22,827 bases of DNA from a virus: IMG/VR virus record IMGVR_UViG_3300045934_000051, positions 1 to 22,827 of that record; one strand, 5' to 3'. A program made the position numbers and the translations under genes. Below, in pieces: positions 1 to 19,901 of the stretch (positions are counted from its first letter, which is position 1; every line of letters begins with the position of its first letter). Under the pieces are notes generated by a model. That model saw only the letters and a list, made by a program, of their open reading frames with translations, did no database searches and had not been told where the DNA came from.

Positions 1-272
1 CCGAGCCGGTGAGGCCGGTCGGCCCGGTCGGGCCTTGCGCCCCGCCGGCCCCCGCCGATCCCGTGATCCCGGTCGGGCCCGTGGGGCCTTGCGCCCCGCC
101 GGCCCCCGCCGATCCCGTGATCCCGGTCGGCCCCGTGGGGCCTTGCGCCCCGCCGGCCCCCGCCGATCCCGTGATCCCGGTCGGCCCCGTGGGGCCTTGC
201 GCGCCGCCCGCGCCGGCGGATCCCGTGAGGCCCGTCGGGCCCGTGGGGCCCGCGGCGCCGGTCAAGCCCGTT
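1..272 (-). repeat. 54-bp tandem repeat inside the collagen-like gene
   Basis: Near-identical 54-bp units begin at 57, 111, 165 and 219 on the plus strand (each starts GATCCCGTGA), with a partial unit running into the left edge. Each encodes 18 residues, that is six Gly-X-Y triplets, so gain or loss of a unit keeps frame. The repeats are coding minisatellite, not CRISPR: there are no unique spacers. Confidence 0.9.
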
Positions 273-1105
273 CCCGTAAGCCCGGTCGGGCCCGTCGGCC
301 CCGGTACGGTCGAGTCGGCCCCCGCTGAGCCGGTGATCCCGGTCGGCCCGGTCGCCCCGGCCGAGCCCGTCACGCCCGTTGGGCCCGTGGGGCCCGCCGA
401 GCCGGTAACCCCCGTCGGGCCTTGCCCCTCACCGGTCGGGCCCGTGGGGCCGGCTGAGCCGGTAACGCCCGTCGGCCCTTGTCCCTCGCCGGTCGGCCCC
501 GTCGAGCCCGCCGAGCCCGTCGCGCCCGTGGCGCCGGTGGGGCCCGTGGGCCCCGTGCCGGTGGGGCCCGTGGGGCCCGCCGAGCCCGCGGCACCCGCCG
601 AGCCGGTCGCCCCCGTCGGGCCCGTGGGCCCGTTCGCGCCCGCGGCGCCGGCGGATCCCGTGAGCCCGGTCGGGCCGGTTGCCCCCGCCGAGCCGGTCGC
701 GCCGGTGGGGCCCGTGCCGGTGGTCCCCGTCGGCCCCGTCGCGCCGGTCGCCCCGGTCGCCCCCGTCGGGCCAGGAATCGCGGCCTCGATATCCTCGAGC
801 GCCTTCGCGGTGATCGTGTTCCCGATTTGATCGCCGGCTTGAATCGCCCGCGCGCTCGAGCCCTCTTGCGCGCGCGCGATCGTGAGCACGTCGCCGACCT
901 TCGCGGTCACGCGGATAATTTCGGCGTTGGAGTTGAGCGGGAGGGCGCCGGCCGGCCAAACGGTACAGTTAAACCCTTGCGCGCCGGGATCAGGAAAGAG
1001 GGCCCCATGGCCGGCGGTGAGGGTCAGCGAGGTACCACTCAGCGCCGGCGAGGGCGCCGTTAGAACGGCGCTATATGCAAAATTGCCATGCGGATCAAAT
1101 GGCAA
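1..1105 (-). CDS. Collagen-like repeat protein, 3' end outside window
   Basis: The minus-strand frame is open from a TTG at 1105 to the window edge (at least 368 residues) with no stop. An in-frame TGA lies three codons upstream of the TTG, so the start cannot lie much further up. Residues 1-110 are a non-repeating head rich in beta-type sequence (starts [12 protein letters not shown], later [19 protein letters not shown]). From about residue 111 to the edge it is almost pure Gly-X-Y with GPT, GAT and GST triplets, which is the collagen signature. Collagen-like triplets are common in phage tail fibres and other virion surface proteins, where they form trimeric stalks; that role is inferred. 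The last 272 bases are near-identical 54-bp units. It is separated by 68 bp from the upstream small genes. The TTG start is the only reasonable choice in frame but lacks a strong ribosome site. Confidence 0.8.
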
Positions 1106-1173
1106 TGTGGCTCATACCCTAGGGCAAGTTGACGAATTCGGCAAGCAACATTGCCGCGCGCGTCAAAATCGTT

Positions 1174-2587: not shown

Positions 2588-3117
2588 GATTCGACCTCCT
2601 CGAGGAGCGGCGCCTCGGCGAGCGCCGGTACCGTCGCGATCGTGTCGTCAGGAAACAAACCCGGCTCGGCCTCGGTGGTCGTCACAAACCGTTGCCCGAG
2701 TAACCAGTCGTGCAAAAACTCGAGATCGCGCCGCCCGACCGGGCCAAATGAGCCCTTCCAGATAAACGCAAAGCCGTCGACGTTTTTTTCAGTTCGCGCG
2801 TACGTCGCCGCGATCAGCACTTGATCAAATACGATCGCCGGCTTGCTCGTATCAGGTGCCGCGTACACCTCGAGCCGTTGCCGCGGCACGCCGAGGGTAA
2901 AGTCGACGCGCTTTAAGTGGGGTTGCGGCTCGGGATGATTGAGCTTGAATAGCGTCGCGCGCACGAGGCCGGGCAACGCGCGCGCGAGGTCGGCCTCGAA
3001 AGGTTGCACCCGAAGCCGTACGGTGATGATCTTCACCTCCTCGCCCTCGCGATCCTCGACCCCGTGAGCGATTTGATCGAGAAACATCCCGACCTTTGCC
3101 ACGTCAAAAAGTTTCAA
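2584..3117 (-). CDS. Conserved phage protein of unknown function
   Basis: 177 residues from a TTG at 3117. I prefer this start because GGGAGG lies a few bases upstream and the product then begins MKLFDVAKVGMFLDQIAHG, which resembles a phage family I have seen in early regions. The middle (EEVKIITVRLRVQPF, later KPAIVFDQVLIAATYAR) is beta-rich and the end is FGPVGRRDLEFLHDWLLGQ followed by an acidic tail. It overlaps the end of the sigma-like gene by 14 bp. A longer frame runs to 3162 but lies wholly inside the upstream gene. The role is unknown. Confidence 0.75.
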   Translation of the reverse strand: MKLFDVAKVGMFLDQIAHGVEDREGEEVKIITVRLRVQPFEADLARALPGLVRATLFKLNHPEPQPHLKRVDFTLGVPRQRLEVYAAPDTSKPAIVFDQVLIAATYARTEKNVDGFAFIWKGSFGPVGRRDLEFLHDWLLGQRFVTTTEAEPGLFPDDTIATVPALAEAPLLEEVES

Positions 3118-4171
3118 TGAGGCCTCCCTTTCCAATTGAGACCGGCGGAATCTTTGGATCACGATTCGTAATTTCGGAAAACGACAACGCCATAACGCGC
3201 GCGCTTTCGATCAAGGCGGGATCTTGCGGGTAATCGAACGCCACACGAAGCGCCGGGTACAATCGCGATATCGGCTCGAGCAAGATTTTCACGTTCGCAT
3301 ACGCACAATCGCCCTCGACCTCGATCGAGGCACGCCCGATCGCGCGCACAAAGCATTCGAGCACGGGGATCTCATTGGCCGGTCGCAATGCGCCACGTTG
3401 AAAACCAGTCTCGAGCGAGCCATCCATTCGCGCCACCAAGATCCGCCCGCGCGGATCGGGATAAATCACGGTTGCCGGATCGACGATCGGCGGCGACTCG
3501 ACCTTGACCGCGGCGGGTTCGCGTTTGGCTTGGTCCTCTATCGAGGCGGTATCGGTGATCCCGACGAATGGGCGCAAGTGTTTACTTCGGCTCGGATGTC
3601 GTAATTTTCTGAGCGCCTTCGCTTCAATCGCGCGCACGCGTTCACGGCCGATTTTGAATTCGTGGCCCACGTCCTCGAGTGTCTCGGCGTCATTCCCATT
3701 GAGCCCAAATCGCCGCTCAATGATTCGCCGCTCGCGTGGGGTGAGTTTGTCGAGAGCAACCGCGATCGCCGCGCGTAATTCGTCTTTCTCAATGGAGTCA
3801 TCCTGAACGGGCGGCAACGATAAACGACGCGCAGCCGTGAGCGAGAGGAATCGATCGCTACTCAATTCCGCGACTCGCCGCGTTGGGAATCCGCCGTATA
3901 AATCTGGCGGGAATAATTCATCGGGCCCGAGGCCGGTAATCTCACATAACCGTCGAGGTGTACGTCGGAGCGGATCCTCGTCGCCGGCGGTCACATTCGA
4001 CCGAGGCGGCCGCTTATAGGGGTTTTCAGAGAGATTTAAATACTCGCCGACCATCCGCTGATCGAGCGCATGCCGGCGGCAAAAGTCGGCCACGCTTGGA
4101 TACACGTCAAAGATCGCATGCCAAAGCACATTATTTCGACAACGCAATTCAAGCCGAAGGTCGTTTACCAT
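3104..4171 (-). CDS. Sigma-70 region 4-like transcription factor with extra C-terminal domain
   Basis: 355 residues in three parts. Residues 1-95 resemble an XRE-like N-terminal domain found in phage sigma-like proteins (LRLELRCRNNVLWHAI, then SVADFCRRHALDQRMV, ending in LCEITGLGPDELFP). Residues 134-200 are a clear sigma-70 region 4: LDKLTPRERRIIERRFGL, then ETLEDVGHEFKIGRERVR and AIEAKALRKLRHPSRSKHLR, so it should bind a -35-like element and touch RNA polymerase. Residues about 235-355 form a third domain I do not recognise. No region 2 is visible, so it is not a complete sigma factor. It overlaps the upstream nuclease-like gene by 7 bp and is probably a regulator of later phage transcription (inference). 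Confidence 0.85.
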   Translation of the reverse strand: MVNDLRLELRCRNNVLWHAIFDVYPSVADFCRRHALDQRMVGEYLNLSENPYKRPPRSNVTAGDEDPLRRTPRRLCEITGLGPDELFPPDLYGGFPTRRVAELSSDRFLSLTAARRLSLPPVQDDSIEKDELRAAIAVALDKLTPRERRIIERRFGLNGNDAETLEDVGHEFKIGRERVRAIEAKALRKLRHPSRSKHLRPFVGITDTASIEDQAKREPAAVKVESPPIVDPATVIYPDPRGRILVARMDGSLETGFQRGALRPANEIPVLECFVRAIGRASIEVEGDCAYANVKILLEPISRLYPALRVAFDYPQDPALIESARVMALSFSEITNRDPKIPPVSIGKGGLIETF

Positions 4172-5980: not shown

Positions 5981-5988
5981 TTATGCTT
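5893..5988. repeat. Ten TGCTT/AAGCA half-sites at 11-bp spacing
   Basis: On the plus strand TGCTT begins at 5893 and 5904; AAGCA (its reverse complement) begins at 5910, 5921, 5932 and 5943; TGCTT begins again at 5951, 5962, 5973 and 5984. Spacing within each run is exactly 11 bp, so all sites in a run face the same side of the helix. The runs meet head-to-head at 5902-5916 (a 7-bp perfect inverted repeat) and tail-to-tail at 5943-5955. The last copy lies at the 3' end of the upstream gene, next to its stop codon. Confidence 0.85.
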
Positions 5989-6388
5989 CCCTTCGGTGTC
6001 GCGCCTTCGCGCGCCGCGTGAGCCCCGATTTCAAGCCCCCGAGCCGGCCCGCGCGGGCTTTGGTCTCGTGTTGCCGGTCTCGATGTTCTTTGTATTCCGC
6101 CGCGGTGAAGTTGTGATCGAGAAAATCGTGTATCTGATAGCCGCCGTTTTGTTTCTCCCAAAGGCCCGCGCTCACGAGCGCCTCGGCGACCTTGAGCGGT
6201 TGATCGCAATGCGCAAAATTCTTGACGACCGCGGCCGGTAAAAATCCGTCGGTCAGTTGCTTATTGGTCCAGATCAGCCCGACCGTAAATAGGCCCATCG
6301 CAATCGCGGGCCCGTCCTTCCCGATCAATTCGCCAGCGACAAAAATTTTTCGGTGATCGATTAGTGAGTCATCGAGTTTTGACCACAC
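5981..6388 (-). CDS. Replisome-organiser-type phage protein
   Basis: 135 residues from a GTG two bases after the upstream stop. The start (MWSKLDDSLIDHRKIFVAGE) and the middle (AMGLFTVGLIWTNKQLTDG, then VVKNFAHCDQPLKVAEALV) match the N-terminal winged-helix-like region of phage replication or replisome-organiser proteins I know, and HDFLDHNFTAAEYKEHRDR also fits. The C terminus is short and basic, so the usual second domain is missing; it may be an auxiliary DNA-binding protein rather than a loader. The phased array begins at its stop codon. Confidence 0.65.
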   Translation of the reverse strand: MWSKLDDSLIDHRKIFVAGELIGKDGPAIAMGLFTVGLIWTNKQLTDGFLPAAVVKNFAHCDQPLKVAEALVSAGLWEKQNGGYQIHDFLDHNFTAAEYKEHRDRQHETKARAGRLGGLKSGLTRRAKARHRREA

Positions 6389-7762: not shown

Positions 7763-8333
7763 CATTCGTGAAATGCTCGAAGAGCGATCCTTGCGCCGGA
7801 TTGGCCGTAGCCATGGCATGAAGGATGCGCCCGAGTTTTTCAAGATTGCCGACGGCCTTTTGGACTTGCTCGCTCGCGTTCGGCGTGATCACATACGCTG
7901 CGTATTTCCGCGCGAAGTCGTCGCGCAGTCGAAACCCTTGCGAGGTGCGCGTCTTGTTTTCTTCTATCGGAAATCGCTTTGCTGACACGAGCGCCCGAAG
8001 ATGGACTTGAGGAAAAATAAAAATCGTGTCGTAGTCACCGATGACATACAGCCAGGAATTGTCGCGGCGAAAGATCCCCGATGGACAGTAATCGCCGTCC
8101 CGCGGCACCGCCTTCTCGGAGATCTCGATCCAGAGATTGCCGGTATGGGCATACAGTTCGTCGTGCTTAATCTCGATTCCTTGGCGCGATTCTCCAATTG
8201 CGTACTGATAGACGCGACTGGAATAGACCTGAATGATCAAGCCGATCGTGTGGCTGAGCGTGTCCACCACGAAATCCTGATAGAGCAGGCCCGATTCGAT
8301 TTTGTTGCGACGATAGGCTTCATACGTCGTCAT
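7752..8333 (-). CDS. Nuclease-like conserved phage protein
   Basis: 193 residues. The segment YQYAIGESRQGIEIKHDE, then GNLWIEISEKA, then NSWLYVIGDYDTIFIF matches a phage family I know with an E-x-K-x-D strand and a W-I-E strand, consistent with a PD-(D/E)XK-type fold. E and K of GIEIKHD and E of WIEI are candidate catalytic residues. ATGA coupling to the methyltransferase and overlap with the ATPase place it in a DNA-processing cluster. Activity is not proven by sequence. Confidence 0.7.
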   Translation of the reverse strand: MTTYEAYRRNKIESGLLYQDFVVDTLSHTIGLIIQVYSSRVYQYAIGESRQGIEIKHDELYAHTGNLWIEISEKAVPRDGDYCPSGIFRRDNSWLYVIGDYDTIFIFPQVHLRALVSAKRFPIEENKTRTSQGFRLRDDFARKYAAYVITPNASEQVQKAVGNLEKLGRILHAMATANPAQGSLFEHFTNDDV

Positions 8334-9346
8334 ACGGCCGCCTCATTCCCCCACGCGGCCCACCCCTCGATCGGTTCTCCTCGATGAAACAATTCGAGGC
8401 GTTTACCGTGCGGATAGAGCGTCTCGATGATGATCCGAAAGACGCCGGGCTTTTCACTGTGATCGGTGCGGCCGGTTTTCTGTACCGAATCGAAAAGTTT
8501 CGGCACGTCTGGCGGGCATGAGCCGCGCACGGCGAGCAATAAAAATTCGTGTCGTACTGAGTTGTAATGCCCGCGATTGTGGGCGTGCTTATCCCAGACA
8601 AACGAGGATTTGTACGTGAAGCCCCACGATCGAATCACCGCGAAAGCGTCCTCGAGGAGCGGCGAGGTCGTCCACAAAAACAAAACCGCGTTAGGCTCGC
8701 AGATCTCGGCGACCTTCATCGCGCACAGTTCGTCGAGGGTCATCGACGGGTAATGTTGCTCGGCGCCGCCCGACTGGACCGATCCGGCGTCGGCCTTGTC
8801 GTTGTAGCTCCACGGCGGATCGGCATAGATGACGCGAAATTTCGCGTCGGGAAGCTCGACACGTTGACGTAGTTTCTCGGCCGTGTCGTGGCGCTTCGCG
8901 ACGCGGTCGGCGCGGGCGGTGCGACTGTCGGTCTCGTGTAAGACCGCGTCGGTTGCCGCTAACGTCGTCAGCAGATCGAGCGGTTCGTCGGTGGTGGAAA
9001 CTCCACCACCGCGATCGTTTTCCTTCTCGCGTTTTTTGGGGTAGGTGGTGGAATTTCCACCACGCGGTTTACCAAGATCCTCACGGACCGTGTATCTGTC
9101 GACGCCAGTCACCTTCGCGATCTCTCGTTCAGAATGCCCCTCGGCCGCGAGTGTCTTGACGGCGTGTTGCCGTTCCTCGACGGAATATTTCACGTAGCCG
9201 CCGAGGCGTTGTTTCACCCAATCGTCGACGGACAACTTGAGCGCCTTCGGCACCCCGAGGCGTTGCGCCAGTGCGATCTGCCGCCAGCCGCCGGCGACGA
9301 CTTGACCGAGGGCCTGCGTGTATTCCTCGGCGTCTTCGGGCTTCAC
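8330..9346 (-). CDS. HTH / MT-A70 N6-adenine DNA methyltransferase
   Basis: 338 residues from GTG 9346. Residues about 1-50 resemble a ParB-type N-terminal region, residues 73-90 form a helix-turn-helix (SEREIAKVTGVDRYTVRED), residues 91-165 are a charged linker, and residues 168-338 are an MT-A70 methyltransferase. Motif IV is DPPW at 176-179 (YADPPWSYND), and HYPSMTLDEL follows near 198. The enzyme should transfer a methyl group from S-adenosylmethionine to adenine N6; phages use such enzymes to escape restriction or regulate genes. No partner restriction gene is nearby, so it is an orphan methylase. The linker carries two near-perfect DNA palindromes (8990-9010 and 9045-9063). Confidence 0.9.
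   Translation of the reverse strand: MKPEDAEEYTQALGQVVAGGWRQIALAQRLGVPKALKLSVDDWVKQRLGGYVKYSVEERQHAVKTLAAEGHSEREIAKVTGVDRYTVREDLGKPRGGNSTTYPKKREKENDRGGGVSTTDEPLDLLTTLAATDAVLHETDSRTARADRVAKRHDTAEKLRQRVELPDAKFRVIYADPPWSYNDKADAGSVQSGGAEQHYPSMTLDELCAMKVAEICEPNAVLFLWTTSPLLEDAFAVIRSWGFTYKSSFVWDKHAHNRGHYNSVRHEFLLLAVRGSCPPDVPKLFDSVQKTGRTDHSEKPGVFRIIIETLYPHGKRLELFHRGEPIEGWAAWGNEAAV
8990..9010. repeat. Palindrome 1 in methyltransferase linker
   Basis: A 9-bp inverted repeat (GGTGGTGGA and TCCACCACC) separated by 3 bases. It shares the box TGGTGGA with the second palindrome 35 bp away. It lies in the linker between HTH and catalytic domains, where protein sequence is likely unconstrained. Confidence 0.85.
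9045..9063. repeat. Palindrome 2 in methyltransferase linker
   Basis: A 9-bp inverted repeat (GTGGTGGAA and TTCCACCAC) with a single central base. Together with the first palindrome it gives four TGGTGGA boxes in 74 bp. Confidence 0.85.
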
Positions 9347-9361
9347 GCTATTCCCGCGCCT

Positions 9362-9856
9362 TCACTCGCTCATCGCCTCGGCGAGGCGCCGGAAGAGATC
9401 GGCCTGTTCCTCGGGCGTCAATTTCCACAATTTGAGTTCAGCCGCGAGCGACCGCATACGGCGTGTGATGTCGTGAATTACTTGCGCGCGCATGCCGGGA
9501 TGTTGCGCGATCGTTTCGATCGTGACGTACGCGGATTCGTCGATCCCCGCCGCGGCATCTTCTCGAATGTGGATAATCGCGCGTACGCGCATCCCTTCGA
9601 ACATCTGCCGAAACCGATTGAGAAACGAGCGCGCTTGCGCGAGGCGCCACTCGACCGCGGCCTCGGGATCGTTCCAATCAAATAGCCGCCGTCCATGATC
9701 GCGATCCCACTCGACGAGATCGGCGGCCGTCACCGATCCCCGGCTCTTGATAAACGCTAACGCTTGCCGTACGTGCGGCGCGGATTTCTGCCAGAGCGCC
9801 GGCGTGAGCCCGACGGGCGGATCGGGCGAGATTTGGGCGGCGGCTATTTCAGACAT
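9362..9856 (-). CDS. Hypothetical phage protein, helical
   Basis: 164 residues. Segments VRQALAFIKSRGSVTAADLVEW and RRLFDWNDPEAAVEWRLAQA match a phage family I have seen beside ParB/methyltransferase genes, usually with a tryptophan-rich DWNDPEAA motif; the fold is likely winged helix plus long helices. The C-terminal half (MRAQVIHDITRRMRSLAAEL) is helical. It starts ATG 9856 with AAAGG upstream and ends 15 bp before the methyltransferase. Function unknown. Confidence 0.75.
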   Translation of the reverse strand: MSEIAAAQISPDPPVGLTPALWQKSAPHVRQALAFIKSRGSVTAADLVEWDRDHGRRLFDWNDPEAAVEWRLAQARSFLNRFRQMFEGMRVRAIIHIREDAAAGIDESAYVTIETIAQHPGMRAQVIHDITRRMRSLAAELKLWKLTPEEQADLFRRLAEAMSE

Positions 9857-10024: not shown

Positions 10025-10855
10025 TCAGTCCTCGAGCGCCTCGAGTACTTCGAAATCGCCGAAGCCGGCCGAGCGCCCCGGCGATAAGCCGACGGTGTAC
10101 CCGGCGAGCTTGAGAACCTGCAGGTATTCGGCGATCGTGATCACCGTGGTAGGAATCCACGCCGCAATCACGAATTCCGTTCCAGGGGCCAGGCGTTCAC
10201 TGCGCACAAACCCTTTGCCTTGCCCGTGATCGTTGACGGGGCTTTGCCCCTTGCTCAGGTTGCCATTTGGCGTGATGACGATCGTTTCGAAGCGGATATA
10301 CCGCGCGAGGGCTTGCTCTTTCCCGATCATCGGCAATGCCGAGACCATCATCGCGCGGAGGTTGTAGCGAAGGATTTGAATCCGCCCCTCGTGATCCCGT
10401 TGGAAGGCGTTGGTCGGCTCGCCGTCGGTATCCTTCACCGGACACCCGCCGCGCACCTCGTTGATGTACCGGCATTTCGCGATCACCCGTTGATACTCGC
10501 CGTACTTCGCAACGATCGGGGTCGTCAATTCGACGAGAAAGCCGAGGTCGGGCGGAATCTTTTTGATCTCGGGCCGGCTGAACCGACGATCCGCCCACTC
10601 GTACCCGCGCACGTCGACCCCGTCTGTCCAGGGTCGAGACACTTCGCGGAACATGCGAAAGTCTCGATACAAGATGGCAATGCATCGCGTAAATGTTTCC
10701 GGCCCAAATTCGGCCTTGAGGGTTTCGGCGGGCACAAATCCTTCCGCCTTCACCTTCAAGGCCATATTGACGATTGACTCGCGGTCGTACTGAATCGTTA
10801 ACACGACGTTGCCGTTACGCTCGGTTGTTTTCACCGCTGCGCTTTCCGTCGGCAT
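10025..10855 (-). CDS. RAMP/Cas7-like phage protein (C-terminal motifs)
   Basis: 276 residues with a strong ribosome site (GGAGGG) upstream of ATG 10855. Residues 158-175 (GRIQILRYNLRAMMVSAL) and the C terminus carry the order of motifs seen in RAMP/Cas7-type RRM folds: ERLAPGTEFVIAA at 220-232, a helix (IAEYLQVLKLAG), then the Gly-rich loop VGLSPGRSAGFGDFEV at 255-270. In CRISPR proteins this loop contacts RNA. No CRISPR array, Cas3, Cas10 or other cas gene is visible, so this is a stand-alone phage protein whose role is unknown. RNA or single-strand binding during replication is a reasonable inference given its place next to the initiator gene. The family assignment is by motif pattern only. 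Confidence 0.6.
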   Translation of the reverse strand: MPTESAAVKTTERNGNVVLTIQYDRESIVNMALKVKAEGFVPAETLKAEFGPETFTRCIAILYRDFRMFREVSRPWTDGVDVRGYEWADRRFSRPEIKKIPPDLGFLVELTTPIVAKYGEYQRVIAKCRYINEVRGGCPVKDTDGEPTNAFQRDHEGRIQILRYNLRAMMVSALPMIGKEQALARYIRFETIVITPNGNLSKGQSPVNDHGQGKGFVRSERLAPGTEFVIAAWIPTTVITIAEYLQVLKLAGYTVGLSPGRSAGFGDFEVLEALED

Positions 10856-11013
10856 GCTTTGTACCCTCCGATTCTTTTTGTTGAATGTTTCAGTGGCTCT
10901 GCTAACTCACTTGTTAGTTGTTCTCCCTCCGTGGCTGCATTGTTTTTTAACTCGGCCCGTGTCGGCCTCATTGCGTCTTTGGCTGAATCGTTTTGTGCTT
11001 CACTTGCGTTCAT
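10831..11013 (-). CDS. Possible small hydrophilic protein
   Basis: 60 residues, MNASEAQNDSAKDAMRPTRA at the start and a basic end; no hydrophobic core or motif. It overlaps the RAMP-like gene start by 25 bp and carries that gene's GGAGGG ribosome site inside its coding sequence, so it could be a coupling leader. Codon use is less GC-biased than in its neighbours. Its own ribosome site is weak. Confidence 0.4.
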   Translation of the reverse strand: MNASEAQNDSAKDAMRPTRAELKNNAATEGEQLTSELAEPLKHSTKRIGGYKACRRKAQR

Positions 11014-11067
11014 TACGTGTTAACTCGTTCGGCCTTGCGGGCCTCGTCGCGAATTGTGCGAGCCATT

Positions 11068-11901
11068 TCACACACCAAACCGTTGCCGAACCGCCGAGTG
11101 TGTTAACTCGCGCAAAATCCAGCGTTGAATCGTCGGCCCGCGTTCCTCTGGCTTCATGACCTCGAGATGCTTGCGAAGGCTATCGGAGGCGTGTTGCTCG
11201 AGGGTCGCTTTCGCCGCCGGCGCCAGGCGCTCATACGCGAGACGCGCGGCAATGGGGGCGTCAGCGAGCGGGGCGGTCGTCTCGTCGTCGGTCAGTTCGG
11301 GTCTGTCATGGCGAGACTGACGCGAAGCGGCAGGTTCTTTAGGTTCAGATGTACGTTCGATCTCTGTAGTTCTGTTCTTTAAGTTCAAGTATTTAAGTTC
11401 GCCGCCGTCTGGCGGCGCCTGTCGTGGCGTATTACGGCGGCTGTCGTGGCCTATTACGGCGGCTGTCGGCTCTATTACGGCGGCTGTCGCGCCTGAGACG
11501 GCGGCTGTCGCGGGCTCACAGGCGCCGCGCGGCGGCGGCTGTCGAGGGTTCACAGGCGCCGTATTACGGCGGCTGTCGGCCGTCGGTACCGACCAGGCGG
11601 GGCGGGTCGGCAACCGGTCGACATGGAAGCGATAGCGCGCGACTCGGCCGCGCGAGGCGTACCGCGACGGTACGTGGCCGAGGCGTTCCAAGATCCCACC
11701 CTGCTCGAGCGCCTTGACGATCTTTCGCACGCTCGAATTCGCGAGCCCGGTTTGCCACGCGACCCGTTCGACCGAGGGATACAAATCGTTGCCGCGGCCG
11801 CGGCGGTCACATTCCAAAAACGCGAAGAGTACGAATTTCGCCATTGGTGATAGGCCGGAATTCCAGATTTGATCTCGTTGCTGCCAGCTGTCGCCTGACA
11901 A
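11068..11901 (-). CDS. Phage replication initiator (HTH_36-type N terminus)
   Basis: 277 residues. Residues 10-90 (SGLSPMAKFVLFAFLECDRR, then YPSVERVAWQTGLANSSVRK and IVKALEQGGILERLG) are a winged helix of the kind found in phage and plasmid replication initiators. Residues 105-185 are a low-complexity Pro/Ala/Arg linker that coincides exactly with a DNA repeat array. The last 70 residues are helical (LAYERLAPAAKATLEQHAS). The layout, N-terminal DNA-binding domain with the origin inside the middle of its own gene, mirrors lambda O and ori-lambda. The initiator should bind the repeats and recruit the replicative helicase; no helicase or loader is visible in the window. Confidence 0.75.
   Translation of the reverse strand: MSGDSWQQRDQIWNSGLSPMAKFVLFAFLECDRRGRGNDLYPSVERVAWQTGLANSSVRKIVKALEQGGILERLGHVPSRYASRGRVARYRFHVDRLPTRPAWSVPTADSRRNTAPVNPRQPPPRGACEPATAAVSGATAAVIEPTAAVIGHDSRRNTPRQAPPDGGELKYLNLKNRTTEIERTSEPKEPAASRQSRHDRPELTDDETTAPLADAPIAARLAYERLAPAAKATLEQHASDSLRKHLEVMKPEERGPTIQRWILRELTHSAVRQRFGV
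11336..11402. other. AT-rich tract, candidate DNA-unwinding element
   Basis: About 67 bp with clearly lower GC than the surroundings, including GTTCTTTAAGTTCAAG and TTTAAGTTC-type repeats. It lies directly beside the iteron array on the downstream side of the gene. Coding is preserved (LKYLNLKNRTTEI), with AT-rich codons atypical of this genome. Confidence 0.6.
11430..11578. repeat. Iteron array, candidate origin of replication
   Basis: The 17-mer TATTACGGCGGCTGTCG is present exactly at 11430, 11452, 11473 and 11562, with variants keeping ACGGCGGCTGTCG or GGCGGCTGTCG at 11494 and 11528. Start-to-start spacing is 22, 21, 21, 34 and 34 bp, close to whole helical turns for the first four. The same DNA unit is read as TAAVI in one copy and DSRRNT in another, so it is conserved as DNA, not protein. 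Two copies of TCACAGGCGCCG fill the 34-bp intervals. Confidence 0.8.
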
Positions 11902-11911
11902 CGAACTTCCC

Positions 11912-12130
11912 CTAGCTGGCGCGCCGTTGTGACACGCGCGCCGGCGCGGCGGTGCCTCGTGAGGTCATAAATTCATCGATCCATGCCGCACAGAACCAGA
12001 TCCGCCGGCCGTGTCTCGAGACACGCAAGCCGTTGTTGACCATCAAATAAATTTGTTTGCGGCTCGGCGGCTTGCCGCCCTCTGGCGTCAAGTACGCGCG
12101 CGCACCGTCGATAGAAAACCATCGATTCAT
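11912..12130 (-). CDS. Excisionase-like HTH protein
   Basis: 72 residues. MNRWFSIDGARAYLTPEGGK, then SRKQIYLMVNNGLRVSRHG and RRIWFCAAWIDEFM match the HTH_17/MerR-type winged helix of small phage excisionases and regulators. It is coupled by ATGA to the ribbon-helix-helix gene and lies between the integrase and the replication initiator. An Xis or Cox-like role (directing excision) is plausible; it could equally be an early repressor. Confidence 0.65.
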   Translation of the reverse strand: MNRWFSIDGARAYLTPEGGKPPSRKQIYLMVNNGLRVSRHGRRIWFCAAWIDEFMTSRGTAAPARVSQRRAS

Positions 12131-12333
12131 GGCGCGGTCTCCTTCGCAATGGCGGATTCGGTTGGTCTGGTCTTCCGCTCGCGCGCCAGACCTTCGGCGA
12201 TCAATCGTCGAGCGGTTGAGCTTGGCGGGTTGCCCTCTCGGCTCGCCGCGCGCCAGAGATGCGCGGCGAGGCGGTCATTTAGGCGAATGGTAATTCGCCG
12301 GCAGAGGTAAAATTTGTCGGTTGCGTCTGACAT
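12127..12333 (-). CDS. Ribbon-helix-helix DNA-binding protein
   Basis: 68 residues. YLCRRITIRLNDRLAAHLWR gives the beta strand (ITIRL) and first helix, and SSTARRLIAEGLARE the second helix, the Arc/CopG/ParR-type pattern. The N terminus is short and the C terminus charged. ATGA coupling to the excisionase-like gene suggests a shared control unit. A candidate binder for one of the repeat arrays in the window (inference only). Confidence 0.65.
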   Translation of the reverse strand: MSDATDKFYLCRRITIRLNDRLAAHLWRAASREGNPPSSTARRLIAEGLARERKTRPTESAIAKETAP

Positions 12334-12408
12334 GAGGCCGAATGTACACGGCCGATCCGCGTCTCACTCATTCGCCCACACAAGAAAGTGGATCGTTCTC
12401 TCTGGGTT

Positions 12409-12588
12409 TCATGACGTTCGCGACAAAGTTTTTTCTTGACACGTTCTGGCGCGAGCTTCGATCCCGGCCTCGGCGAGCGTGGGGCGGTCGTCTGTTAATG
12501 GTGGGGCCTTTCTGGTCCCGCCATTTTTCGGAAGTCGTCCTGCTTTTGCTCCCTTGTTGAGCCCAACCGTCTTGCTTTGCGCGTCCAT
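12409..12588 (-). pseudogene. Fragment of a ParB/Srx-like phage protein
   Basis: A 59-residue frame whose MDAQSKTVGLNKGAK, then RPTLAEAGIEARART resembles the middle of a phage ParB-like family in which the motif PTLAEAGI is followed by a long helical domain. Here both ends are missing: a stop lies just upstream and the family's downstream part is replaced by CQEKTLSRTS and a stop. I read it as a relic. It may still be expressed as a short peptide. Confidence 0.5.
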
Positions 12589-13040
12589 CAATTCACCGAC
12601 ACGCCGCTCGGCGAGAATGCGTCCCGGGCACCTCGATCAACCACTGTCGTCGCGATTCGGTCGAGCGATGGACTAAAGATGCGCGACAGGCCGAGCACGA
12701 CGCGCAACAGGCACGCGCGTGGGATCTCTGGCTCGATTGCCATGAGCAACAGGCCATCGCCGACATGATCGGTGTGAGCGAGCCGACTATTACCGTCTGG
12801 TTTAAAGAACGAAAATCTTCGGAAATTAAACCGCCCGACTCCCGGCAAGACTTCGACATCTGGACGTTCGCCACGACCGACCGCGAGGGCGGCGGCCAGC
12901 AGTCCTATTTCGGCGCGGCGCCGACGGCGCACTCGAGCACGCGCGCACTGCGCCGGACGTCGTCGCGGCCTTCGCGATTGCCGACGAATTTCTCGATCGC
13001 CGTCGCAAATGTGCTAGCTCAAAAGCCGCCTGCCGGTTGA
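12586..13040 (+). pseudogene. Relic of a ParB/DNA-methyltransferase gene
   Basis: The only plus-strand coding remnant. The open frame carries ERWTKDARQAEHDAQQ, then WDLWLDCHEQQAIADMIGVS (a helix-turn-helix) and PPDSRQDFDIWTFATTD, ending GGGQQSYFGA, at 12640-12922. This matches the part of phage ParB-DNA methylases just before the conserved NLL...DPFAGGG block. After SYFGA the similarity ends abruptly and the frame runs on as unrelated residues. The ParB domain and the methylase catalytic block are absent, so it is a decayed fragment. Confidence 0.6.
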
Positions 13041-15945: not shown

Positions 15946-17384
15946 CGGGTCAACCACTCCTCGAGAAACGCGATCGTTTCGGCTTTGGCCTCCTCGTCGG
16001 TGATCTCGTCCTCGTCCTCGAGATCGTCATCGTCGAGATCGTCATCGTCGAGATCGTCGTCATCCTCGGGCTTGTCCTCGTCAGGCGGCGGCGGTGTCGC
16101 CTTCGCCAGGCCAAACGGATCCGCCGAGTCGTTGCGTTTCTGCAAGGCACTGAGCGAGTAGTTTTGATGTTGCAAAAAGCAATCGTCGCCGCCCTCGACG
16201 GGTTTCTTACTGAACAGCGCGCGGCCTTCGTTCGGCGTGAAGATCGCGCCGCCGACCCCTTTGGTCGCAATGTCCATTTGCATCGACGAATCCATACGCA
16301 AGAGGGCATCGAGATCAAACTCAACGCCTAACTCGCGCTCGTTGGTGCGGGGAAGCTCGAGCCCCTCGTCGAGACACACCTCGCAGCTTTCGATCAATTG
16401 CTGCAACGCTTGGCCGTAATACTCGATATTCGCGGCTTGGACGTTGCCGTACGCCGGCATCGGCGCGAGGCCCACTTTCCAGGGCGGGACGTGAAACGCC
16501 GAGCACACCGTTTCGCCCGACCATTTCAATTGCTCGACCATTTGCGCATCGTGCGGCGTGGTCGTCATCGGCTCGTAGTGCAAGCCGTCGCCGAGCACCG
16601 CGACCCGCCCCGCGTTGATGCCGGTATAGTTCGCCTCCCAATCGTCTTTGATGCGTTTGGCGGTGTCGTCACTGATCAAGCCGGGCGCGGTGAGCACGCC
16701 GCCGGGTTGCGACAGGTTGGCGAAAAAACTCTCGGAGTTGCTTTGAATCTTGATCCCCTGCAACGCCGCCAGGCCGCACGCGTAGATCGGCGACACGCCC
16801 ACGAGCGGATGAAACAGGGGCACCATGAGATCGTGAATGATTTCGCTCGCCGGCGCGGTGACTTGGCCGGCCTCGAGGCCCGAGAGGTGATCGCGCGCGA
16901 GTTGATAAAAGACTGCCCCATCGGGCGCGACCATCGGGATCACACGACCGGGATCGAGCGGATAGAGGGCGATCACGATCCCGCGCGCGTCGCGTTGCTT
17001 CAAGCAATAGAAATTGCCGCGCGTCAGTTTCGAGATCATCCACGTCTCAATAAACTTGACGCGCGTTTGAAAGCGATTCGGTTTGCGTAAGACCGGCTTA
17101 AAGGGCGACTCGCCGAGCACCGGCGACCAGATGCCCTCACGATCTTTTTCGACCAGGCCGAGCCAGAGTTTTGAAATGTCGCCCGCGATCAAGGTGACGC
17201 ACGCCCAGATCGCGCCGAAGCGCAAGGCCTCATCCGCGGTGATCTCGATGTTGCGTTGCCAGGCGCCCGCGAAGGATTCGCGCACGATCGGCCACCAGGA
17301 CCGGGTACCGTCGACCGTTTGCAACATGCGCGGTTCTTTGACCGCGGTCACGAGCGCGCGCGCGAGGCTCAGCGTTTTAGGCAT
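15942..17384 (-). CDS. Portal protein (HK97 family)
   Basis: 480 residues. MVPLFHPLVGVSPIYACGLA, then IKDDWEANYTGINAGRVAVL, WSGETVCSAFHVPPWKVGL and YGNVQAANIEYYGQAL are hallmark segments of HK97-type portals, which form the dodecameric DNA-entry ring at a capsid vertex. Residues about 420-470 are an acidic repeat of LDDDD units encoded by three 15-bp repeats (units at 16021, 16036 and 16051). The last residues are a normal helix. The start overlaps the upstream membrane gene by 8 bp. Length is in the usual range if the acidic tail is discounted. Confidence 0.95.
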   Translation of the reverse strand: MPKTLSLARALVTAVKEPRMLQTVDGTRSWWPIVRESFAGAWQRNIEITADEALRFGAIWACVTLIAGDISKLWLGLVEKDREGIWSPVLGESPFKPVLRKPNRFQTRVKFIETWMISKLTRGNFYCLKQRDARGIVIALYPLDPGRVIPMVAPDGAVFYQLARDHLSGLEAGQVTAPASEIIHDLMVPLFHPLVGVSPIYACGLAALQGIKIQSNSESFFANLSQPGGVLTAPGLISDDTAKRIKDDWEANYTGINAGRVAVLGDGLHYEPMTTTPHDAQMVEQLKWSGETVCSAFHVPPWKVGLAPMPAYGNVQAANIEYYGQALQQLIESCEVCLDEGLELPRTNERELGVEFDLDALLRMDSSMQMDIATKGVGGAIFTPNEGRALFSKKPVEGGDDCFLQHQNYSLSALQKRNDSADPFGLAKATPPPPDEDKPEDDDDLDDDDLDDDDLEDEDEITDEEAKAETIAFLEEWLTR

Positions 17385-17900: not shown

Positions 17901-19901
17901 TTACGAGGGGCTTCCGGCGCCGCCCCACTCGACGTTTTGCAGCCATTGCACCGCCTCGGTACGCCGCCGAGACCAGTTCACGTACCGCTCAGCCTTGAGG
18001 CCGATGCAGTTCGTTTGCCAGAGGGAGACCATTTGCGCCGCGGTTGGCGTGACCGCATCATTCGCCGGCGTGTCGGACATCTCGAGCGCGGCCTCGCGGC
18101 TCGCGTCGATCGTCACCGTGCCATCATCCGAAAAGAAAATATCGGAGGCATTGACGAGTACCACGATATTCACGTCGGGGCTTGTCCACGCGCAGTACTG
18201 CGACACGATCACCGGGATCCCCATGAACGTCCCGCCGTTCATCGTCAGGCCGGGGAATTCCGGTTGCCCAAGCGAGTTGACCATCATCGACAACGCGAGG
18301 GCGACCGTCGACGGCATGATCAGCACCGCCGAGGTCGGATCCTGATTGTCGAGAATGAATTGATTGAATAACGCTTGGAAGTCGGCGCGCACCGCCGCCG
18401 CATCGGTGCCGCTCGTCGACATCGGCGCGATCCCGTTGGTAATCGAGGCCGGCGAAACATTGGTGACCGCGTTTTTCGCCGGGTCGATAAAGTCGATATC
18501 CAACCGCTCGATCACCGCGGCGGCCAAGCCGTCACGTACGAGCCGCTCAGCCGAGGGTGTGGAAAACCGCGCGAGTTCCTCGGAGATCACCGAGATCGCG
18601 GCAATCTTGGCCCACGTGAGCGTGGTTGACGAGAAGTCAAACTTGGTGACCGGCTTTGGTTTCCCCTGCCCGACCCAATCGGCGGTACCGCCGCTCGTCT
18701 GTCCGATGATCCGCACGTTAAAGGGCACTTGACGCAAGCGATCGCGGAGCGCCAATTGACCGAGGATGGTTCGCGGCCGGAGGTATTCGACGAAATCGCC
18801 GGCGTAATTGGTCGGGTCGACCAAAGGGCCGGCCCACGTCGCGTCGGTCGTTGTGCCGGCGGCCACGTTGGCCTTAAACATCATGCCCAGGCGTTGATCG
18901 CTCGGGTAGCGGTGCGCCGCGATCTCGCTCGCTTTGAATTCGCCGCGCGAGAGAAACGCCGCGGCCTTGCAGATCGCAAAGCGCGCAAAGCCGATCCCCG
19001 GATCGAGTTTGTGCTCGAGTACCGCGACATGGCCGGTCCCGCCGCGCGTCGCGCTCGCTTGCGTCGCGCTCGCCCCGGCGACCGCGGCCGCTTTCGTCGC
19101 GTTGATCTGCTCGAGTTCGCGCAAGTCGACGAGTTCCTCATCGATGCGGCGTACCTGTTCCTTGAGGGTGTCGAATTCCTCTTTTTCCGCCTCGTCTTTC
19201 GTGCGGCCCTCGTTGCTCGCTTTCGTTTGGATCTCGGTCAATCGGGCTTCGTTGGCGGCGCGCGTCGCTTCCAATTCCTTGATCTGTTCGGCAAAAGTTT
19301 TCTGAGCCATGGAACGATCCCGCGCTCGGTGCGTGGGCACCCCGCGCGCAACATCCGAAGCGCCGGATCGGTTTGAGCCGTCGACCTCGCGCGCCTTGCC
19401 AAGCGCGGCGCGCGCGGAGTCGTACTGTTGAATCGATTTGATCGTGAGGATGGCGGCGTCGGCATTGGCGGGGATCGTGACCGCGCTCAATTCGAGCCAG
19501 ATCCATTTTTGAATATGAAAGCCGAAGGTATCGGCGATCGGCTCGAGCTTGATCGGTCGGAAGCCGATCGAGAGGCCGCGCACGAGGCCGGCCTTGATCG
19601 TGTGCCAGGCCTCATCGAGCCGGGTTTTCAGGTTGCCCGGCGTGTCGACGTTGGCGATCTGAGCGGTGATCTCGATGCCGGCTTTTGTGCTTTTCGCGGC
19701 GACCACGTGGCCGATCGGTTGCCGCGGATCGTGTTGCCAGAGGAGCGGGATCGGGAGCTTAAACTCGGCCCCGTCCGGGTCCACGATATCGCCGTCGCGG
19801 TCGGTCGCGGCATTGGTCGCGATCCCGCGGATGAGGCGCCGATCCTCGTCGGCGGATTTCGTATCAAAGGCGAGGAGGGAATGAATCCGGCGCCCGTCCA
19901 T
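17901..19901 (-). CDS. Prohead protease-major capsid protein fusion (HK97 type)
   Basis: 666 residues. Residues 1-160 are an S78-family prohead protease: H57 (WQHDP), S111 (GLSIGF) and E137 (LELSAVTIPAN) are the expected active-site positions. Residues 198-270 are a charged coiled coil (MAQKTFAEQIKELEATRAAN) matching the delta/scaffold domain. From about 295 to the end is an HK97-fold major capsid protein, with LDIDFIDPAKNAVTN and PGLTMNGGTFMGIPVIVS typical of the family. An in-frame ATG at codon 198 (19310) preceded by GGATC could give a separate capsid protein. The fusion may be cleaved by its own protease, which is an inference. It lies two genes downstream of terL. Confidence 0.95.
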   Translation of the reverse strand: MDGRRIHSLLAFDTKSADEDRRLIRGIATNAATDRDGDIVDPDGAEFKLPIPLLWQHDPRQPIGHVVAAKSTKAGIEITAQIANVDTPGNLKTRLDEAWHTIKAGLVRGLSIGFRPIKLEPIADTFGFHIQKWIWLELSAVTIPANADAAILTIKSIQQYDSARAALGKAREVDGSNRSGASDVARGVPTHRARDRSMAQKTFAEQIKELEATRAANEARLTEIQTKASNEGRTKDEAEKEEFDTLKEQVRRIDEELVDLRELEQINATKAAAVAGASATQASATRGGTGHVAVLEHKLDPGIGFARFAICKAAAFLSRGEFKASEIAAHRYPSDQRLGMMFKANVAAGTTTDATWAGPLVDPTNYAGDFVEYLRPRTILGQLALRDRLRQVPFNVRIIGQTSGGTADWVGQGKPKPVTKFDFSSTTLTWAKIAAISVISEELARFSTPSAERLVRDGLAAAVIERLDIDFIDPAKNAVTNVSPASITNGIAPMSTSGTDAAAVRADFQALFNQFILDNQDPTSAVLIMPSTVALALSMMVNSLGQPEFPGLTMNGGTFMGIPVIVSQYCAWTSPDVNIVVLVNASDIFFSDDGTVTIDASREAALEMSDTPANDAVTPTAAQMVSLWQTNCIGLKAERYVNWSRRRTEAVQWLQNVEWGGAGSPS

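Follow-up and report, generated by a model that had tools for sequence, protein, structure and literature searches.

A probable replication origin embedded in a phage initiator gene with an N-terminal winged helix

The window analyzed here, the whole 22,827 bases of IMG/VR record IMGVR_UViG_3300045934_000051, contains head, portal, terminase, and integrase phage genes recognized by profile matches, together with a replication initiator gene that holds a set of short repeats. The question raised by this locus is whether the repeats form the replication origin of the phage, within the gene for its own initiator, as a preliminary description of the DNA had proposed. Other genes on the minus strand include an MT-A70 DNA methyltransferase with an N-terminal helix-turn-helix region (8330-9346), a 355-residue protein whose middle matches sigma-factor PHROG 351 (E value 6.3e-22; 3104-4171), possibly a phage sigma-like regulator, and a single open reading frame (ORF) at 17901-19901 that matches both the major head protein (PHROG 617, E value 2.5e-159) and a head maturation protease (PHROG 80), an apparent protease-capsid fusion. 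A second replication-initiation-like ORF (5981-6388, minus strand) matches PHROG 2447 over just the N-terminal third of that profile. The initiator gene itself is organized as follows.

11068 to 11901, minus strand: replication initiator gene, 277 amino acids, TTG start
Initiator residues 16 to 71: N-terminal HTH_36 winged helix (Pfam match)
Initiator residues about 100 to 200: linker, followed by the C-terminal region

The gene begins 10 bases past the preceding gene, and AGGGGA, a ribosome-binding-like site, stands just 5' of the TTG. The HTH_36 match lies barely over the Pfam cutoff (25.1 versus 25 bits), and the protein is weakly matched overall by PHROGs 391 (2e-9), 270 (1.2e-7), and 1032 (7.5e-4). 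The O-like initiator PHROGs 678 and 345 match it as well, and by these profile matches it belongs among the HTH_36 and O-like PHROG initiators. Comparison with solved structures returned weak general winged-helix matches only, including the DnaD-like replication initiation protein 2vn2 (0.0043). For the C-terminal part, the Pfam and PHROG profiles gave no match to a known family above noise, and no helicase or loader gene was recognized among the window proteins scanned.

The repeat unit on the coding strand is CGACAGCCGCCG, often followed by TAATA. The initiator gene holds seven copies, of which the last carries one mismatch; all are on the same strand, with none on the opposite strand. The record has the exact 17-mer TATTACGGCGGCTGTCG only at 11430, 11452, 11473, and 11562, while the 12-mer core CGGCGGCTGTCG is present in six copies (11435, 11457, 11478, 11499, 11533, and 11567), with a seventh copy at 11413 carrying one mismatch. 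From copy to copy, the start-to-start distances are 34, 34, 21, 21, 22, and 22 bp, and the repeat is read in three frames (TAAVI/TAAVS, DSRRN, and RQPPP/RQAPP). The features are listed below in the direction of the gene.

11567 to 11576, minus strand: iteron half-site 1, ACAGCCGCCG on the coding strand, frame DSRRN
11552 to 11576, no strand: palindromic unit 1, 25 bp, ACAGCCGCCG-TAATA-CGGCGCCTGT on the coding strand, one arm mismatch
11533 to 11542, minus strand: iteron half-site 2, frame RQPPP
11518 to 11542, no strand: palindromic unit 2, 25 bp, arms as in unit 1, 5-bp spacer
11499 to 11508, minus strand: iteron half-site 3, frame TAAVS
11478 to 11487, minus strand: iteron half-site 4, frame TAAVI
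11457 to 11466, minus strand: iteron half-site 5, frame TAAVI
11435 to 11444, minus strand: iteron half-site 6, frame DSRRN
11413 to 11422, minus strand: iteron half-site 7, ACAGGCGCCG, one mismatch, frame RQAPP
11334 to 11400, minus strand: AT-rich, A-biased tract by composition, candidate DNA-unwinding element

The two 5' units are palindromes with a fixed 5-base spacing, and the remaining units are mostly single half-sites; half-site 7 has a weak inverted arm at 11398-11407. Against a single-base-shuffle null, copies 1, 2, and 7 are palindromic at p≤0.05 and copies 3 to 6 are not; the four iterons of lambda also fail this test. The tract on the 3' side has 66% AT, compared with 37% for the window, and, of its 67 coding-strand bases, 31 are A and 13 are T; it includes three near-copies of GAACTTAAA. 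The AT-maximum of the gene over 40 bp (72%, about 11360-11399) abuts the array on its 3' side. The preliminary description had counted six copies in two frames; the repeat and its frame-switching are real, and both numbers were short by one. It had also placed all the repeats in the linker beside an AT-rich tract, which agrees with our finding that array and tract sit between the winged helix and the C-terminal region.

Synonymous shuffling that preserved the protein and its codon usage was used as the null, scoring 12-mers with at most one mismatch within 160 bp. In 2,000 shuffles the maximum was five copies, reached once, against the seven observed. A scan of the whole window gave no comparable second array; the other clusters were only a run of three copies within the portal gene, at 16015, and a GXY-coding repeat at 1-800. 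The latter region belongs to a collagen-like GXY-repeat protein (2-1111, minus strand, about 80% GC) that runs off the window edge and is probably a tail fiber. GC skew was rejected as origin evidence, being uninformative because the G-rich iterons themselves produce a local change.

A search with the N-terminal 100 residues of the initiator found one contig, L142, which is 61% identical in that domain, and a repeat search using the aligned window/L142 pair returned L142 again as the sole near relative. Its linker carries six copies spaced by 33, 34, 22, 22, and 22 bp, the first two likewise with inverted arms. When these six are paired with all window copies but the fourth, 59 of 60 core bases are identical (19, 20, and 20 of 20 at the three codon positions), versus 32 of 66 (48%) in the 11 bp just 3' of each core and 67, 81, and 48 of 100 at codon positions 1, 2, and 3 of the N-terminal domain. 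In the second and third pairs, the reading frame differs between the two contigs; therefore, indels moved the frame and left the DNA core in place. The L142 portal is just 29% identical to that of the window, so initiator and repeats were kept together in an otherwise different phage. At the level of sequence comparison, the repeat is evidently kept as DNA in all three frames, with a spacing near two helical turns. That selection acts on the DNA had been claimed from the frames alone, and the shuffles and the L142 cores, kept while flanks and frames changed, strengthen the claim. Absence of the repeats from a close relative with the same initiator had been named as the observation that would speak against an origin, and L142, the only near relative found, has them.

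Searches for further near relatives returned little. No relatives were found by tblastn with the whole initiator at 1e-3 in viral_contigs, genome_contigs, or phages. The exact 17-mer gave six single-copy matches in viral_contigs, judged to be chance, and no contig was found with a pair of 13-mer copies. Paired 10-mer cores were present in 30 viral contigs, only one of which carries the initiator domain (L173, which is the L142 contig); the remaining 29 were taken as protein repeats or chance. The same search in 385 genomes of one class gave none. The initiator was not found in contigs, mostly fragments, with relatives of the portal or of the downstream gene at 10025-10855; therefore, these modules probably reassort relative to the initiator. 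Two contigs (L011 and L012) have a portal 100% identical to that of the window, and both end before the initiator.

We investigated the wider HTH_36 family at lower similarity. Eleven genes from low-scoring tblastn matches were read by eye, and eight have linker iterons of differing sequence, with none seen in the other three (Yavru, PVA1, and p11K1). A profile of seven N-terminal domains, A1, whose rows were partly picked after arrays had been noticed in them, was then searched against 289 genomes of Brucella's class (36 with matches at 1e-4) and 398 genomes of its phylum (59 with matches at 1e-7), and only the best loci were taken from each search. The scored set comprised 72 domain genes (the window, L096-L106, L111-L140, L142, and L143-L171). 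At least three copies of a 12-mer were found in 38 of the 72, and 26 beat all 100 synonymous shuffles (22 of 65 without the seven profile rows). Among the 51 domain genes of at least 230 residues, 37 have at least three copies and 26 exceed every shuffle. The corresponding numbers for 144 control ORFs are 7 and 1, the controls being ORFs of 200 residues or more called in six frames on the window and these loci, not all of them real genes. The other 46 domain genes have no significant array under the strict shuffle test; many are short and may be regulators.

The 26 arrays resemble that of the window in layout. Spacing is 21 to 25 bases in 61 of 91 intervals, with a mode of 22; at least two frames are used in 22 of the 26 and three in 5. 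The AT-maximum lies at the 3' edge of the array in 20, and in all 26 the coding strand has more A than T just past that edge. Ranked among the other windows of its own gene, the 3' flank stands at a median percentile of 1.00 for AT and a mean percentile of 0.83 for A skew. First-copy palindromy was dropped as a general rule, with 37 of 105 copies in 23 arrays palindromic at p≤0.05 under the single-base-shuffle null. Iteron sequences differ among the 26, and iteron similarity follows winged-helix identity (Mantel r 0.51, 0 of 2,000 permutations) in 23 arrays, L120, L163, and L168 having been set aside in advance because their spacing is irregular; part of this covariation may reflect shared descent. 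Together, the survey suggests that the cassette is widespread in Pseudomonadota prophages and is present as well in a few named phages infecting Thermus, cyanobacteria, and actinobacteria. We found no published survey of in-gene iterons in HTH_36 initiators in a literature search that was mostly blind to subscription papers.

The locus thus has multiple iterons in the initiator coding sequence, an AT-rich tract 3' of them, and conservation at the DNA level, the elements of a lambda-type in-gene iteron origin. Every sequence-level test run supports the proposed iteron origin, and the array at 11398-11576 with the adjoining AT-rich tract is very probably the origin from which this phage replicates, embedded in its own initiator gene. 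Its best reading would be a lambda-O-type, self-contained initiator-plus-origin cassette. We propose that the N-terminal winged helix binds the ACAGCCGCCG half-sites and that several bound copies of the initiator would wrap and bend the array. Negative supercoiling could then open the A-rich tract 3' of the array, and recruitment of the helicase, direct or via a loader, may fall to the C-terminal part of the protein. The linker would tolerate coding by whichever frame the iterons occupy, so that gene and origin could move between phages as one cassette. A more speculative and rather doubtful elaboration is that the origin is a lambda/plasmid hybrid, in which two dimer-binding 25-bp palindromes at 34-bp spacing would serve control or nucleation and would be followed by monomer-binding half-sites at 21 to 22 bp beside the melting tract. 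This layout is also seen in L142 and, if the reading is true, points to a dimer/monomer switch by which expression and initiation would be coordinated within one gene.

The repeats could instead be initiator-binding sites for autoregulation, by transcription roadblock or handcuffing, with the origin elsewhere. Plasmid initiator operators are palindromes, as are the first two units here, and neither a promoter (no sigma-70 promoter within 10700-12700) nor a DnaA box (none near the array, the nearest at 9568) was seen nearby. Both dimer and monomer binding are described for lambda and plasmids in PMC5043065. We nevertheless consider autoregulation alone unlikely, with the A-rich AT-maximum abutting the array, as in 20 of the 26 arrays and in the layout of ori-lambda, and with no other non-triplet iteron array in the window, although the record may be a genome fragment. 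A different assignment would make the ORF at 5981-6388 the true initiator and 11068-11901 a relic or regulator. The former does match phrog_2447, labeled replication initiation protein, at an E value of 1.9e-21, and three contigs with relatives of the neighboring gene (L091-L093) lack an HTH_36 initiator, two of them (L092 and L093) having ORFs that resemble 5981-6388 by eye. Its product has only 135 residues for a 295-position profile, however, with no iteron array near, whereas 11068-11901 is an intact gene whose array shows purifying selection, which leaves this assignment very improbable.

A protein-level explanation of the repeats, in-frame duplication of a low-complexity Pro/Ala/Arg linker, would suit a GC-rich linker region of a type often with repeats, and 29 of the 30 paired-10-mer viral contigs lack the initiator domain and mostly have 21-bp spacing, a multiple of three. 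The array in the window uses three frames and spacings of 22 and 34 bp and exceeds all 2,000 synonymous shuffles, and its core is conserved at all codon positions across a frame change. The shifts of frame from the window to L142 contradict in-frame duplication, which has next to no likelihood in our judgment.

For the embedded origin, the same features, an HTH_36 linker, a frame-switching repeat with a pitch of about 22 bp, and an A-rich 3' flank, could serve as an origin finder for uncultured temperate phages. Each system would pair its own winged helix with its own iteron, which offers a data set for winged-helix DNA specificity and sets usable for building orthogonal replicons.

Among known systems, the closest in plan are lambda O with ori-lambda and gene 18 of phages P22 and L, where iterons likewise lie in the linker of the initiator's own gene. 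The self-contained initiator-plus-origin design is stated for all three in PMC8022706, and passages of PMC7466680 and PMC5043065 place iterons and an AT-rich tract in the middle of O. The annotated O-binding iterons of the lambda record are 20, 24, and 23 bases apart and use three frames, and ori-lambda has its AT-maximum directly 3' of the iterons, as in the window. The likeness to lambda drawn in the preliminary description is therefore apt in linker iterons, 20- to 24-bp spacing, three frames, and 3' AT-rich tract, as is its remark that the iteron sequence differs. The arrangement of units differs as well: lambda iterons are 19-bp imperfect inverted repeats bound by dimers, and plasmid iterons are mostly direct repeats bound by monomers, according to the same passages (PMC7466680, PMC5043065), unlike the seven units of the window with two clear 25-bp palindromes and mostly single half-sites. 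The N-terminal Pfam families also differ, HTH_36 in the window and Phage_rep_O (PF04492) in lambda O; PF04492 matches lambda O and gave no match in the N-terminal domain of the window initiator. To call the protein unrelated to lambda O was too strong, because phrog_391, 678, and 345 each match both proteins. PHROG 391 covers residues 11-201 (N-terminal) of the window initiator but 140-292 (C-terminal) of lambda O, while 678 and 345 cover N-terminal-to-linker regions of both; the relation shown is one of shared profile families, short of a direct match or of homology throughout. Also comparable are the HTH_36-bearing initiators of PHROGs 391, 270, and 1032, the array-carrying ones matching the same PHROGs as the window protein. 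The origins of plasmids F, P1, and R6K lie beside, rather than inside, the rep gene. Phased direct repeats adjoin an A+T-rich tract in these iteron plasmids, as described in PMC5043065; the window shares this arrangement, but its initiator is of a different family. In the staphylococcal RepA_N plasmid pSK41, likened by description only, Rep boxes lie centrally in rep and the encoded linker is deletable in trans, according to PMC5703833, which resembles the in-gene boxes here in a plasmid of another initiator family. The kind of origin is thus already known, because the lambda/P22/phage L and RepA_N plasmid designs have been described (PMC8022706, PMC5703833).
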